Positions 28,022-33,730 of a DNA stretch of 39,931 bases are shown here, piece after piece. The notes beneath the pieces are model-generated. The model was not told the origin of the DNA, did no database searches, and was given only the letters and a program-made list of their open reading frames with translations. The stretch comes from Archangium sp. (lineage in GTDB: Bacteria > Myxococcota > Myxococcia > Myxococcales > Myxococcaceae), in the NCBI GenBank assembly GCA_030695565.1, contig JAUYRZ010000003.1:1-39931 (forward strand). The letters run 5' to 3'. The position numbers and the translations under genes were made by a program. How positions within the stretch are numbered: position 1 is the stretch's first letter; each line of letters begins with the position of its first letter.

Positions 28022-28645
28022 CTACTTCCCTTTGACCAGCCTCGCTTTGATCGCCCCGACCAGCATGTCGATGGCGATCTCGTTGTTGCCACCGTGCGGC
28101 ACCACGATGTCGGCCCAGCGCTTGGAGGGCTCGACGAAGGCCATGTGCATCGGCCTCACGTGACGGAAGTACTGGTGGATCACGTGATCGAAGTCGCGGC
28201 CGCGCTCTTTGATGTCGCGGGTGAGCCGGCGAATGATGCGCACGTCGTCTTCGGTCTCCACGAAGATCCGCACGTCCATCTCGGTTCTCAGCGCGTCCAT
28301 GTGCAGCACCAGGATCCCCTCGATGAGGATCAGGTCGGCTGAGTTCACCGACAAGGTGCTCGCCTGCCGGGTCGACTTGACGAAATCGTAGACCGGCTTC
28401 TCCACCGACTTGCCCGCCTTGAGCGCCTTCACGTGCGCCACCAGCAGCTCGGAGTCGAACGCGTCGGGGTGATCGAAGTTCACCTCGCGGCGCTCCTCGA
28501 GGCTCAAGTGATCGAGCGGCCGGTAGTACGAATCTTGATCGATGAACGCGACGCGCGAAGCGAACGCTTCATGGATCTTCCGGGCGACCGTGGTCTTCCC
28601 CGAGGCGGTCCCACCGGCGATACCTAAGACGAGAGGTGCGGGCAC
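28022..28645 (-). CDS. udk: Uridine kinase
   Basis: 207 aa, from a GTG at 28645, 13 nt after the phosphodiesterase stop. It phosphorylates uridine and cytidine with ATP or GTP for pyrimidine salvage. The P-loop is GIAGGTASGKTTVARKI at residues 8-24, followed by FIDQDSYYRPLDHLS, NFDHPDAFDSELL, LILIEGILVLHMDAL and RRLTRDIKERGRDFDHVI, all standard for the family. It is the last gene of the minus-strand run that starts with the adenylate cyclase; no functional link between pyrimidine salvage and cyclic nucleotides is evident beyond position. Confidence 0.95.
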   Translation of the reverse strand: MPAPLVLGIAGGTASGKTTVARKIHEAFASRVAFIDQDSYYRPLDHLSLEERREVNFDHPDAFDSELLVAHVKALKAGKSVEKPVYDFVKSTRQASTLSVNSADLILIEGILVLHMDALRTEMDVRIFVETEDDVRIIRRLTRDIKERGRDFDHVIHQYFRHVRPMHMAFVEPSKRWADIVVPHGGNNEIAIDMLVGAIKARLVKGK

Positions 28646-28658
28646 GGCGGGGGCGCTA

Positions 28659-29414
28659 TCAGAAGTCGAATTCTTCGCCCAGTTCCGACACGTGCACGGG
28701 CAGGTGACGCACTTCCTTCTTCAGCTGCGCCACGAAGGCCGGCTTGAGGTGGTACAGCAGCACCTCGCAGCCCCGCCGATCGAACTTTTCCAGCTCTTTG
28801 GCGATGGTCTGGGGCGTGAAGTGACCCGAGATGTCCGCCAGCGCCTGCAGCTGGTTGGGGAAGCTGCATTCGAGCAGCAGCACCTTGAGGTCCTTCACCT
28901 TGTTGAGGACCTTCCAGAACTTCTCAGTGGGGCCCGTATCTCCGCTGATGGCCATGGAGACGTCGCCATCGGAGATCACATAGCCGCACGACTCGACGGG
29001 GTGGCTCACCAGCACCGACTTCACCGCGTACGGGCCGACCTTGAAGCTCGAGCCGGCCTTGAAGGCGCGCAGCTTGTACACCGGGTTCTTCTGGGTGGGG
29101 ATCTTGGTGAAGTCGGGCCAGAGCACGTTGTTGAAGATGTTGTTCTTCAACGTCTCGATGCACTCGGTGTTGCTGTGAATGGTGACCGGCGAATCACGGC
29201 GCCCGACCAACACGTCGGACAACATCGGCAGGTCCTTCACGTGATCGAAGTGCGAGTGCGTCAGCAGGATGTCGTCGATCTTCGCCAGCGCCGGGAGATC
29301 CAGCATGCTGGTCAAAGCGCCCGCGTCGAGCGCGAGGCGGTCATCGACTACGAAGCAGGTGCTCTTGCACCCGGGGAGCTCGCCACCGTGTGGCCCGAGG
29401 ATTTTGAGTTTCAC
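28659..29414 (-). CDS. Class II-type 3',5'-cyclic-nucleotide phosphodiesterase (metallo-beta-lactamase fold)
   Basis: 251 aa from GTG 29414 (MKLKILGPHGGELPG), five nt after the stop of the CRP-like gene; a GTG at 29441 would overlap that gene by 22 bp. The motif LLTHSHFDHVKDLP (HxHxDH at 53-58) is the metal site; SHPVESCGYVISDGD and AISGDTGPTEKFW match the class II PDE (yeast PDE1-type) subgroup closely, as does the LLLECSFPNQ segment. These enzymes hydrolyse cAMP or cGMP to the 5'-nucleotide. The gene lies behind a cNMP-binding protein and an adenylate cyclase, so it probably removes the signal they make and sense. Confidence 0.88.
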   Translation of the reverse strand: MKLKILGPHGGELPGCKSTCFVVDDRLALDAGALTSMLDLPALAKIDDILLTHSHFDHVKDLPMLSDVLVGRRDSPVTIHSNTECIETLKNNIFNNVLWPDFTKIPTQKNPVYKLRAFKAGSSFKVGPYAVKSVLVSHPVESCGYVISDGDVSMAISGDTGPTEKFWKVLNKVKDLKVLLLECSFPNQLQALADISGHFTPQTIAKELEKFDRRGCEVLLYHLKPAFVAQLKKEVRHLPVHVSELGEEFDF

Positions 29415-29419
29415 GGCTT

Positions 29420-30070
29420 TTAGAGTTCCCCGAACTTCCACTTCATCTCGAGGTAGCGGAGGAAGTCGAAGAGGCGCGCGGTGTCTCGCACGGTGAGGCG
29501 ATCACCTGAAGTCTCGACCAGGCCCGCACGCTCGAGCCTGTTCACCATGAATCGAATCGCCGGCTCGCCCACCGCGAGCTCACGGGGAAGATCTCTGACC
29601 GGAAAATCCACCTCGATGCCCTCCTCGCCCTGACGGCCCCGCGACTGGCAGAGCTGCAACATGTGATGAACGATGCGGCTGTTCGGATCGGAGAGCAGCA
29701 GGTTCTCGATCTGCGCGTCGGCGTCCGACAGGCGCTCCGCCAGCTTCTTGATCATGCGCACGGCGATCTCCGAGTTGCCCCGGATCATCGCCTCGAACGT
29801 GCGCGGGTCGATCACCAGCACGCGCGCTTCGTCTTCGACCGTGGCCGACGCGTTGCGCGGCTTGTTCGAGATGATCGCCATCTCGCCGAAGAACTCACCG
29901 GGCCCGAGGATCGCGAGGACCTTCTCGACGTCGCGCACCTTCTTGGAGATCGCGACCTTGCCCGACTGGAGGACGTACATCTCCTTGCCGGGATCGCCCT
30001 CGCGAAAGAGAACCGTCCCCTTCGGGATGTCTTTGCCAAACCGTTGAAACAGGGCTTCTTCGGCGCTCAT
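29420..30070 (-). CDS. CRP/FNR-family cyclic-nucleotide-binding transcription regulator
   Basis: 216 aa. Residues 10-115 are a cNMP-binding domain: FREGDPGKEMYVLQSGKVAI, then the phosphate-binding cassette FFGEMAIISNKPRNASATV with Glu63 and Arg72, the residues that hold ribose and cyclic phosphate. A long helix follows (KKLAERLSDADAQIENLLL), then a winged-helix DNA-binding region (VRDLPRELAVGEPAIRFMV, RLERAGLVETSGDRLTV). It is likely a cAMP-responsive regulator. The terminal segment LFDFLRYLEMKWKFGEL is an added helix. It is located 63 nt after the adenylate cyclase and 5 nt before the phosphodiesterase, consistent with one operon. Confidence 0.9.
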   Translation of the reverse strand: MSAEEALFQRFGKDIPKGTVLFREGDPGKEMYVLQSGKVAISKKVRDVEKVLAILGPGEFFGEMAIISNKPRNASATVEDEARVLVIDPRTFEAMIRGNSEIAVRMIKKLAERLSDADAQIENLLLSDPNSRIVHHMLQLCQSRGRQGEEGIEVDFPVRDLPRELAVGEPAIRFMVNRLERAGLVETSGDRLTVRDTARLFDFLRYLEMKWKFGEL

Positions 30071-30133
30071 GGAAAGTGCCTGACTCTCACCTGCAACCGG
30101 GGGGGCGTCAATTTGAAGATCTGCACGGGGTCG

Positions 30134-32443
30134 TCACTTGGTCTTCAATGACACCACCCCGTCCCAGTCGGCCGGGGGCGGGTTCAAGGTGAAGGTCTCC
30201 AGCTCTTCGAGGTAATTCCGGGCCGGGCCGTCGTTGGGCCACAACCCCAGCACCTCGGTGAAGAAGCGGGTGGCGTCGCTGAAACGGCGCTCGGTCATGG
30301 CGGTCAGCCCGGCCTCGAAGGCGGTGATGGCCTTGCCGTCGGCCTCGGAGGGCGTGCCCAGCCCCCTCAGCTCGAAGATGCCCACCGGCACCTTCTTCCC
30401 CTTGACCCGCACCGCGCCCAGCCGCCGGGTGACGATGCCCTCCTTCACGGCGCCCCGGGTCCACTCGCTGATGATGATGCGGGTCTCGTATTCTTTGTTG
30501 GTGCCCTCGAGGCGGCTCCCCAAGTTCACCGAGTCACCGAGCACGGTGTAGTCGACGCGCACGTCAGACCCCATGTTCCCCACCACCATCTGGCCGGTGT
30601 TGATGCCGATGCCGATCTCCAACCCGGGCAGGCCGTTGGCGCGCCACTGGGCCTTCAATTCTTCAAGGCGCTCCAGCATGTGCACCGCCGCACGGCAGGC
30701 GCGCAGGGCGTGATCGTGCTGGTCGAGCGGCGCGTTCCAGAAGGCCATCACCGCGTCGCCGATGTACTTGTCGAGCGTGCCCTTCTCGTCGAACACGATC
30801 TGGGTCATCGGCGAGAGGTACTGGTTGATGAAGTCGGCCAGCTTCTCGGGCGACATGTGCTCGGACAACGAGGTGAAGCCACGAATGTCCGAGAACAACA
30901 CCGTCATCTCGCGCTTCTCACCGCGGTTGAGGCGCTCGGGGTTCTCCAGCGCGACGTCCATCACGTCTTCGCCCAGGTAGCGGCTGAAGGTGCTGCGCAT
31001 CTTGAGCTTCTCGCGATCGACCGAGAGGTACCCCAGGAAGATGGTGCCGAAGGCGGTCACGGTGAGGTGCACCGTGGGCATCACACACGACACCTTGAGC
31101 CCCGCGGTGAAGAGGAAATACGTGGCGAGGGTGAAGCCGCCGATCACCGCCACCATCACCAGCATCTTCGAGACGAAGGAGCGGATGCGCGCGGTCACCA
31201 CGGTGAGCACCAGGCCCAGGCTCAGCATCACGCCCAGCTCGACGAACCGCAGCCACCAGGGGCGATCGAGAAAGTCAGCCCGCAGGATGTTGGAGACCAT
31301 CGAGGCGTGGGTGATCACCCCCGACTCCACCTCGTTGAAGGGCGTGTTGCGTTGATCGCCCATGCTGCCGGTGATGGTCACGCCCACCAGCACGGCCTTC
31401 CCGGCCACCTTCTCTCTGGGGACCGTTCCGTCGAGCACGTCGACCACGCTGATTCTTGAGAAGGCGCTGGAGCTGCCAGGGTAGTTGATCAGCGTGTACG
31501 GCGCGTCGGTCTGCATCGGCACGCGCGTCTTGCCGAGCTGCACGCCCATCAGCTCGTCGTCTTCGATCACCGGCACGATGGCGGCGTCGAGCTGACGGGC
31601 AGCCACCTGGAGACCCAACGAAGGAAAGAGGCCCGGGGGCTCCTTCAACTTCACCAACACCGGCGTGCGGCGGATGGTGCCGTCGAGATCGGGGTCGGCG
31701 CCGAAGTGGCCATAGCGCGAGCCGAGGTTCGAGAATCGTTGGAGCGGCGCCTGCACCCCGGAGTGCGCTCGCGCGGGGATCGCCTCCAGGTTGATCGGCC
31801 TGGTCGAGCCCTTCACGCTGCCGGGAATTGAGGTGATCACCTCGGGCATCACCGCCACCGCGTAGCGCGCGCGCACGCCTTCGGCGATCGACGCCACGTC
31901 GCGGGGCTCGAAGGGGATCACCCCCTGCACGATGCGCGGGCCTCCTTTGCGGAAGACGGCCTCGAGCGCCGCGTCGGGGCTGACGAGGGCGCGATCTTCG
32001 AGCTCCTTCGCGATGCCCTGGAGCTCAGCCGGCACGGTGCTGGTGCTGCGAAACGCCACCAGCCAGGCGCGTTCACGCGCATCGACCGAGGTCTCGTCGG
32101 TGAAGGCCATGTCGAGGCCGATCACCTTCGCGTCGGCGTCGAGCAACGCGTCGATCGACTTCGCCACGATGTCGCGTGGCCAGGGCCACAGCCCGAACCG
32201 CTGGGCACCCCGCTCGTCCAGCTCCATCACCACCACGTCGGGGTGAGCTGCGATCTCGCCGCGGGTGCGGAAGAAGACGGTGGAGACGCGCCCTTCGATG
32301 TTCTGCACGAACCGATGGAGCACCCCTCCGTCGTTCACGTTGCGGATGATGGGGGCGCTGGTGGTGAGGTGCAGCAGCGCGAAGAAACCGAAGGTGGCGA
32401 GCGCAAGCACTTCATAGCGCCGCCGCGAGAAGAGGTTTTTCAT
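30134..32443 (-). CDS. Membrane adenylate cyclase: CHASE2 sensor, three TM segments, class III catalytic domain
   Basis: 769 aa from ATG 32443 ([16 protein letters not shown]); an in-frame codon at 32518 would add 25 residues with no family support. One N-terminal TM segment is followed by a periplasmic CHASE2 domain (about 40-355: [40 protein letters not shown]) and three TM segments (about 360-470). The catalytic domain (about 500-690) has both metal Asp (519 in FSDIRGFT, 563 in DKYIGDAV), Lys559 and Asp631 that select adenine, and Asn640/Arg644 that stabilise the transition state, so cAMP is the expected product. A short TPR-like helical segment ends the protein. It heads a run with CRP-like, PDE and udk genes and is divergent from purM. 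Confidence 0.93.
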
Positions 32444-32526: not shown

Positions 32527-33561
32527 GTGGGAACGACCTACAAGCAGGCTGGCGTAGACATCGAAGCGGGCGACGCGCTCGTCGAGCGGATCAAGCCCCA
32601 CGCGGCCAGGACCCGGCGCAGTGAGGTGCTTTCAGGCGTGGGGGGCTTCGGAGGGCTCTTCGCGATCCCCCCGGGCAAGTACAAGGAGCCCATCCTCGTC
32701 AGCGGCACCGACGGCGTGGGCACCAAGTTGAAGCTCGCCTTCGCGCTGGATCGCCACGAGACGGTGGGCATCGACCTCGTCGCGATGAGCGTGAACGACG
32801 TGCTCACCAGCGGCGCCGAACCGCTCTTTTTCCTCGACTACTTCGCGACCGCCCGCCTCGATGTCGAGCGCGCGGAGAAGGTGATCGCCGGCGTGGCCAA
32901 AGGCTGCGAGCAGGCGGGCTGCACCTTGCTGGGCGGCGAGACCGCTGAGCTGCCGGGCTTCTACGTGCCGGGAGAGTACGAGCTGGCCGGCTTCTGCGTG
33001 GGCATCGTGGAGAAGGCGCAGATCATCGACGGCAAGAAGATCGCCCCGGGCGATCGGGTGATCGGCGTCGCGTCCTCTGGGCTGCACTCGAATGGCTTCT
33101 CGCTGGCGCGCCGAATTCTCGAAGACGCGCGGCTGGCGTTGACCGATTCGGTCGATGGCGTGGTGCTGGGCGACGCACTGCTCGAACCCACCCGCATCTA
33201 CGTCAAAGACCTGCTCGCGCTGCACGCGGCGGTGCCCCTCAAGGGCATGGCGCACATCACCGGCAGTGGTCTCCCCGGGAACGTGCCGCGCTGCCTGCCC
33301 GATGGCCTGCGCGCCGTGCTCAAGGAGTCGAGCTGGAAGCGGCCGCCCATCTTCGACATCTTGCAGAAGCTCGGTGAGGTCGAACGCAACGAGATGTTCA
33401 GCACCTTCAACATGGGGCTGGGCATGACCGTGGTGGTCGCGCCCGATCAGGTGAAGCCGGCGCTCGAGTTCCTCGCAGCGCGTGGTGTCTCTGCCTGGGA
33501 CGTCGGCGTCATCGAAGCGGGCAAACCCGGAGCAGAAGCCGAGGCCATCGTCGAATTATGA
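32527..33561 (+). CDS. purM: Phosphoribosylformylglycinamidine cyclo-ligase (AIR synthetase)
   Basis: 344 aa from a GTG start; the N-terminus [19 protein letters not shown] is the usual PurM start. It closes the imidazole ring of FGAM to AIR with ATP in purine synthesis. Supporting segments are [78 protein letters not shown] and [19 protein letters not shown]. The stop codon lies at the first bases of the tandem repeat separating it from purN. Divergent from the adenylate cyclase across an 83-bp gap that must hold both promoters. Confidence 0.97.
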
Positions 33562-33730
33562 TCTGGGTCGCTTTGCCTCGGCCAGCCGTCCGCTTCGCTC
33601 CCGTCTGTCTCGCGCAGCGTTCCGCTGCGACCGGCGTCGCTCCGAAGATCTCGGTCGCTTTGCCTCGGCCAGCCGTCCGCTTCGCTCCCGTCTGTCTCGC
33701 GCAGCGTTCCGCTGCGACCGGCGTCGCTCC
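33560..33730 (+). repeat. Two tandem 84-bp copies (period 87 bp) between purM and purN
   Basis: GATCTGGGTCGCTTTGCC... at 33560-33643 is repeated at 33647-33730 with one difference (GATCTGGG versus GATCTCGG), separated by GAA. Each unit holds GCAGCG-TTC-CGCTGC, a small perfect hairpin, and a CCGCTTCGCTCCCG segment. The period is 29 codons, so the purN frame stays open through both copies ([19 protein letters not shown]...), but no start codon within the repeat is needed for purN. The first copy overlaps the last two bases of the purM stop. Confidence 0.93.

Follow-up and report, generated by a model that had tools for sequence, protein, structure and literature searches.

A CRP-like protein and a class II-type phosphodiesterase encoded together across Myxococcota, with an optional CHASE2 cyclase: a candidate non-transcriptional cyclic-nucleotide sensor

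INTRODUCTION

At the cyaD1-clr-spdA locus of Sinorhizobium meliloti, Clr binds DNA with 3′,5′-cyclic AMP (cAMP), and SpdA, a phosphodiesterase (PDE) of class III (metallophosphoesterase), acts on 2′,3′-cyclic nucleotides (2′,3′-cNMPs) (PMC4222275). In Bdellovibrio, the cyclic-nucleotide-binding (cNMP) domain of Bd1971 controls a PDE (PMC8846402). Here we describe a locus in a 39,931-nucleotide (nt) stretch of DNA (the window; contig JAUYRZ010000003.1) from an 8.5-Mb draft genome of Archangium sp., family Myxococcaceae, in which three consecutive genes encode a membrane CHASE2 nucleotide cyclase, a CRP-like protein and a class II-type PDE. As in S. meliloti, genes for an adenylate cyclase, a CRP-like protein and a PDE share one locus, but the window PDE is of class II type and the window CRP-like protein is without the canonical DNA-reading helix. 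Bd1971, in which a CRP-type cNMP domain governs a PDE, is a precedent for the sensor-PDE control proposed below, although it is a single fused protein concerned with cyclic di-GMP, whereas in the window the two genes are separate but coupled and the PDE is of cNMP type. For Myxococcus xanthus, we found no published work on this locus in the open-access literature.

RESULTS

The gene order recurs across the phylum, and the cyclase is its dispensable member. Among 195 Myxococcota genomes surveyed (G and L numbers below are genomes and locus records, respectively), 152 have the PDE and 156 the CRP-like protein; both were present in 147, with the PDE alone in 5 and the CRP-like protein alone in 9. 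Of about 120 locus records, some genomes contributing two, 64 have the order cyclase-CRP-PDE. It is kept in families where purM no longer flanks the locus, and the trio also occurs in the phylum's most distant families. Because it recurs phylum-wide, this order is far above chance; a search for it in other Myxococcota, suggested in a preliminary description made from the window sequence alone, thus shows that it is not unique to this genome. The spacing between the CRP-like and PDE genes is mostly −4 to +5 nt, with a 4-nt overlap at 28 of 113 loci, and this coupling persists while the neighbors (udk, a gldG-like gene, even the cyclase) change. The cyclase-CRP gap is typically 50 to 100 nt. At five loci (L164, L096 and L115 to L117), the CHASE2 cyclase and the CRP-like gene are farther apart: the cyclase is 1.8 to 3.2 kb upstream, with other sequence in between and, in L115 and L117, a second CRP-like fragment.

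A linked cyclase is missing from 33 loci, Myxococcus, most Corallococcus and Archangium included, where the CRP-PDE pair directly follows purM. M. xanthus DK1622 is one of the strains with the pair and no linked cyclase, and the orthologs in L064 are 65 to 76% identical. (One record with a Myxococcus-type locus, L060, is titled Comamonas sp. KCTC 72670 and is probably mislabeled or contaminated.) With about 17 class III cyclase domains in the window genome, the linked cyclase is not the sole possible source of cAMP there; larger myxobacterial genomes have about 14 to 29 such domains. In two genomes, G042 (one contig, 99% complete) and G045 (99%), the CRP-like and PDE genes are both present with their motifs intact, and no cyclase was found in a search limited to classes I, III and IV (CYTH). 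Two complete, Anaeromyxobacter-like genomes (G031 and G032; L161 and L162) have the CRP-like gene beside purM, with Glu63 and Arg72 kept; neither a PDE nor a class I, III or IV cyclase was found in them. Class I and class IV (CYTH) enzymes were considered as a hidden source of cAMP and were not found in the genomes tested, in a search that did not extend to classes II, V and VI. Given the gene content of these four genomes, the self-contained cAMP loop first suggested for the locus cannot be its whole function. The cyclase is linked but dispensable, and its link looks ancestral, given the trio in the most distant families.

The CRP-like protein keeps its ligand domain and has lost the canonical DNA-reading residues. 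Glu63 and Arg72, the two phosphate-binding residues of the cNMP cassette, are present in 107 of 107 and 106 of 107 orthologs, in agreement with the intact cassette initially reported. By comparison with CRP of Escherichia coli and Mycobacterium tuberculosis, the window protein shares the cNMP domain, the dimer helix (of CRP/FNR type) and the winged-helix fold, but it differs in having an unconserved winged helix-turn-helix (wHTH), no R-E-x-x-x-R helix and an extra C-terminal helix. Its HTH_Crp_2 match, on which the preliminary description was silent, scores 23.1 to 25.1 bits, below the Pfam cutoff of 27 bits. Across 46 representative orthologs, entropy per column is 2.3 bits in the winged helix, 1.1 in the cNMP domain and 0.96 in the dimer helix, and the recognition helix is unconserved even among relatives whose cNMP domains are 70 to 80% identical. 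The R-E-x-x-x-R motif (R180/E181/R185 type of CRP proper) is absent from the window protein and from 18 relatives. In the AlphaFold2 model, the winged helix is folded, followed by the additional helix, and the predicted local distance difference test (pLDDT) score is above 90 for most of the protein. At the positions of E. coli T127/S128, the window protein instead has A117/D118; this change was rejected as evidence against cAMP, the canonical CRP paralog described below having the same A-D pair. The E. coli CRP sequence entered these alignments and the tree, and the 18-genome comparison given below is independent of it.

In two related draft genomes (L075 in G050 and L080 in G049), the CRP-like protein is a 136-amino-acid (aa) form that ends after the dimer helix, and its gene overlaps the PDE start by 4 nt; L137 and L138, from the same genomes, have the same 136-aa form. 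No leftover winged helix was seen in the flanking frames of the L075 and L080 genes. Two other short forms were set aside: the 142-aa protein of L037 was rejected as a domain loss because of an in-frame TAG in a draft genome, and the 190-aa protein of L088 (G022) looks like a C-terminal frameshift and was not used.

In many relatives, a sister paralog of the locus protein is encoded elsewhere in the genome: a canonical CRP whose recognition helix reads TSRETVSR (L181 to L186 and L211 to L230). It has the same cassette and dimer-helix A-D pair as the locus protein, and unlike the latter it keeps that helix. In the same 18 genomes, RETV(S/T)R is found in 18 of 18 canonical CRPs and in 0 of 18 locus copies; recognition-helix identity is 0.79 for the canonical CRP and 0.41 for the locus copy, whereas cNMP-domain identity is 0.55 and 0.64, respectively, and the mean net charge of the winged helix is +1.5 against −1.2. 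This matched canonical CRP was used in place of an initial control family (L154), whose 5 genomes made it too narrow. In another control CRP family, from the window genome, conservation is 0.71 in the recognition helix versus 0.58 in the cNMP domain. The canonical CRP and the locus copy form distinct clades, even in trees built from the cNMP part without the winged helix (support, 0.72 to 0.96); the locus protein is a second, ancient CRP paralog. At a threshold of 1e-35, no canonical CRP was found in the window genome or in other Myxococcaceae, except distant (about 40% identical) copies. The locus protein had been taken for a regulator in the transcriptional sense; with a DNA-reading helix that is unconserved here and kept by the separate canonical paralog of relatives, that assignment fares poorly.

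The canonical CRP probably acts at the locus in some lineages. A GTGAY-N4-RTCAC palindrome lies 60 to 121 nt upstream of the CRP-like gene at 12 of 112 loci, versus about 0.5 expected. It sits in the cyclase-CRP gap of ten of them (L083, L084, L085, L088, L143, L145, L147, L076, L090 and L112) and upstream of the CRP-like gene in L075 and L080; none was found upstream of the cyclase (0 of 66 regions), and the window's own upstream regions contain no CRP-type palindrome. Canonical CRP was detected in 10 of the 12 genomes, the other two being incomplete (61% and 81%). Since two of the 12 loci, L075 and L080, encode a CRP-like protein without a DNA-binding domain, and since canonical CRP is present in 10 of 12, the palindrome is likely bound by the canonical CRP of those genomes and can be regarded as a putative operator.

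The cyclase has the residues expected of an adenylate cyclase of class IIIb type. Both metal-binding aspartates that had been claimed, Asp519 and Asp563, are invariant among 50 aligned orthologs, as are Lys559, Thr633 and the transition-state residue Arg644 (50/50 each); Asn640, also a transition-state residue, is found in 49 of 50. A Lys + Thr selector pair defines class IIIb, and Lys + Asp defines class IIIa. The claim that Lys559 and Asp631 select adenine stands for Lys559 and fails for Asp631, which is variable (D in 28, N in 18 and others in 4 of the 50) and was rejected as a purine selector. In the alignment with the catalytic domains of CyaC (1wc0) and Pseudomonas aeruginosa CyaB, Thr633 falls on their Thr, which argues for a Lys559/Thr633, class IIIb, cyclase with predicted cAMP synthesis. 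The best solved relative is P. aeruginosa CyaB (3r5g; 2.3e-42), and CyaC was also matched. Hydrophobic segments at aa 12 to 30 and 400 to 449 flank CHASE2, with one transmembrane (TM) segment before it and about three after; together with the PF05226 match, this membrane topology supports the extracytoplasmic input proposed initially.

The PDE clears the PF02112 cutoff (68.5 versus 23.7 bits), and the HSHFDH and SGDTGPT motifs noted in the preliminary description are strongly conserved in 109 orthologs: His53 and His55 in 108 of 109, and Asp57, His58 and Asp159 of SGDTGPT in 109 of 109. SGDTGPT and a WPDF block are almost invariant. The window HSHFDH does not fit HXHLDH of typical class II enzymes, with Phe where they have Leu (F in 73 and L in 21 of the 109 orthologs). 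An alternative motif, [T/S]HXHXDH, has been described for atypical class II PDEs, including Rv1339 (PMC9293780); the window THSHFDH matches it, whereas the Pfam model is that of typical class II. Yeast PDE1, which shares the metallo-beta-lactamase (MBL) fold, a WPD-type block and an ECSF/GH block with the window PDE, is both the best sequence match among solved relatives (6e-8) and the top structural match (Z 28.2; 2.1 Å over 246 residues), with YhfI and RNase Z within 1 Z. The score against the RNase Z equivalog TIGR02651 is below its cutoff (50.1 versus 292.95 bits), and the class II-type activity is a prediction from sequence.

The genes, their order, strand and coordinates (Table 1) agree with those first described, as do the two intergenic gaps on recomputation, and the functions assigned to all three products are supported by homology (Pfam E-values: CHASE2, 7.6e-47; Guanylate_cyc, 1.3e-23; cNMP_binding, 1.2e-24; PDEase_II, 7.4e-19). 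A scan of the locus for sigma-70-type promoters and terminators found none and was uninformative. purM adjoins the locus throughout its Myxococcales relatives. Only the closest relatives have udk, for uridine kinase, next to the trio, and in several it is inverted, as expected of the passenger it was suspected to be. Between purM and purN (33560 to 33730 of the window) there are two tandem copies of an 87-bp unit, 98% identical. This unit belongs to a family of short interspersed repeats, with about 44 matches in the window genome, on many contigs and at 75 to 93% identity; as RNA it folds no better than shuffled sequences do (z, +0.98).

Table 1. Features of the locus, in window coordinates
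Feature	Coordinates	Strand	Evidence or remark
CHASE2-3TM-class III (IIIb-type) nucleotide cyclase, 769 aa	30134..32443	−	Pfam CHASE2 + Guanylate_cyc; 50 aligned orthologs; P. aeruginosa CyaB 3r5g the best match of solved structure
CHASE2 extracytoplasmic sensor domain, aa 46-411	31211..32308	−	PF05226, 160.5 bits; flanking hydrophobic segments
Cyclase catalytic domain, aa 509-685	30389..30919	−	Pfam PF00211
Cyclase-CRP gap, 63 nt	30071..30133	−	CRP-type palindrome here in other families, none in window
CRP-like protein, 216 aa (cNMP-binding domain and dimer helix, then a degenerate winged helix and an additional helix at the C terminus)	29420..30070	−	
cNMP-binding domain, aa 15-97, phosphate cassette FGEMAIISNKPRNA (E63, R72)	29780..30028	−	Pfam, 86.5 bits
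Degenerate HTH_Crp_2 winged helix, aa 132-200	29471..29677	−	Fold predicted intact (pLDDT above 90); recognition helix unconserved
CRP-PDE gap, 5 nt	29415..29419	−	Translationally coupled in relatives
Class II-type cyclic-nucleotide PDE (PF02112, MBL fold), 251 aa, GTG start	28659..29414	−	PDEase_II, 68.5 bits
PDE metal motif HSHFDH, aa 53-58	29241..29258	−	Ortholog conservation
PDE motif SGDTGPT, aa 157-163	28926..28946	−	Ortholog conservation
Uridine kinase	28022..28645	−	PRK/udk, 7.9e-43

DISCUSSION

We propose that the locus represents an ancient, phylum-wide module with a core of the CRP-like protein and the class II-type PDE and an optional CHASE2 class IIIb cyclase, in which the sensor would be non-transcriptional and act by protein contact; on the sequence comparisons given here, we consider the chances of this to be evenly balanced. 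One can envision that the CHASE2 cyclase, judging by its domains, would turn an extracytoplasmic signal into cAMP, and that the CRP-like dimer, with its invariant Glu and Arg, would bind a cyclic nucleotide through the phosphate cassette. The ligand-bound dimer may then shift its conformation and contact a protein rather than DNA, most likely the neighboring PDE, so that the signal would tune its own destruction, a form of feedback. The winged helix would persist as a folded domain that may serve as a contact surface. Where lineages still have the canonical CRP, that protein probably also switches the CRP-like/PDE pair through GTGAY-N4-RTCAC. The earlier interpretation is half right: it correctly linked synthesis, sensing and degradation, but its cyclase is an optional member and its sensor probably does not regulate genes.

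Several observations weigh against this proposal. Confidence in the predicted winged-helix fold is high and some weak HTH similarity is left, which is compatible with DNA binding of drifting specificity. The wHTH-less form is known from just two draft genomes, both of the same genus. In the nine genomes that have the CRP-like gene and no PDE, the protein must have another role, and in G031 and G032 it stands beside purM with neither PDE nor cyclase. Finally, with the A-D pair shared by the canonical paralog, the site of E. coli T127/S128 does not discriminate, and the ligand is a predicted one.

The retained fold leads directly to the most conventional explanation, an ordinary one-operon cAMP circuit in which the CRP-like protein regulates transcription in a cAMP-dependent way through a drifted DNA site and the PDE resets cAMP. 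Its closest solved full-length relatives are the CRPs of M. tuberculosis and other organisms, the cyclase is linked in many genomes, and CRP-type palindromes precede the CRP-like gene at 12 loci. However, a drifted site fits poorly with a recognition helix that varies between relatives with 70 to 80% identical cNMP domains, or with the loss of RETV(S/T)R from the locus copy in 18 of 18 relatives whose canonical CRP retains it. Moreover, the palindrome is still present at the loci of the two genomes in which the wHTH is deleted, and the window's upstream regions have no CRP-like site. We therefore think such a circuit rather improbable. The conservation could also reflect neighborhood only, a slowly rearranging region beside purM with no functional loop, as the presence of purM throughout Myxococcales relatives would allow. 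The trio order is kept in families without an adjacent purM, however, and the CRP-like and PDE genes stay translationally coupled while udk, the gldG-like gene and even the cyclase change, which makes this explanation very unlikely indeed.

The pair might instead serve as housekeeping for a nucleotide other than 3′,5′-cAMP, such as 2′,3′-cNMPs from RNA decay, cyclic GMP (cGMP) or imported or prey-derived cNMPs, which the PDE would remove and the CRP-like protein would sense, with the cyclase a later or optional addition. G042 and G045, which keep the pair without a detected class I, III or IV cyclase, are in line with this, as is the closeness of the PDE family to RNase Z. There is also the example of S. 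meliloti SpdA, predicted for 3′,5′-cAMP and found to act on 2′,3′-cNMPs (PMC4222275). Against it, the trio with its cyclase occurs in the phylum's most distant families, so that the cyclase link looks ancestral; the nearest characterized relative of the PDE is yeast PDE1; and a cyclase of class II, V or VI or of a novel type in G042 and G045 would have fallen outside the search. On balance, we regard this explanation as unlikely.

Returning to a sensor that acts by protein contact, its broadest form would be a phylum-wide non-transcriptional switch, a CRP paralog turned into the ligand-sensing subunit of a class II PDE, with the pair still sensing and degrading a cyclic nucleotide in lineages without known cyclases. 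We put this forward only tentatively and think it doubtful in that full form. The association itself is real and more general than could be seen from the window sequence alone, and the retention of sensor and PDE without a detected cyclase raises the question of which nucleotide they see. CRP-fold proteins are annotated by default as transcription factors. If the proposal is true, this phylum-wide family, with its ligand pocket kept, its DNA-reading helix dropped and its gene coupled to that of a PDE, would show how a CRP has turned, in nature, into a regulator of proteins, and the many class III cyclases of myxobacteria would gain a testable downstream partner.

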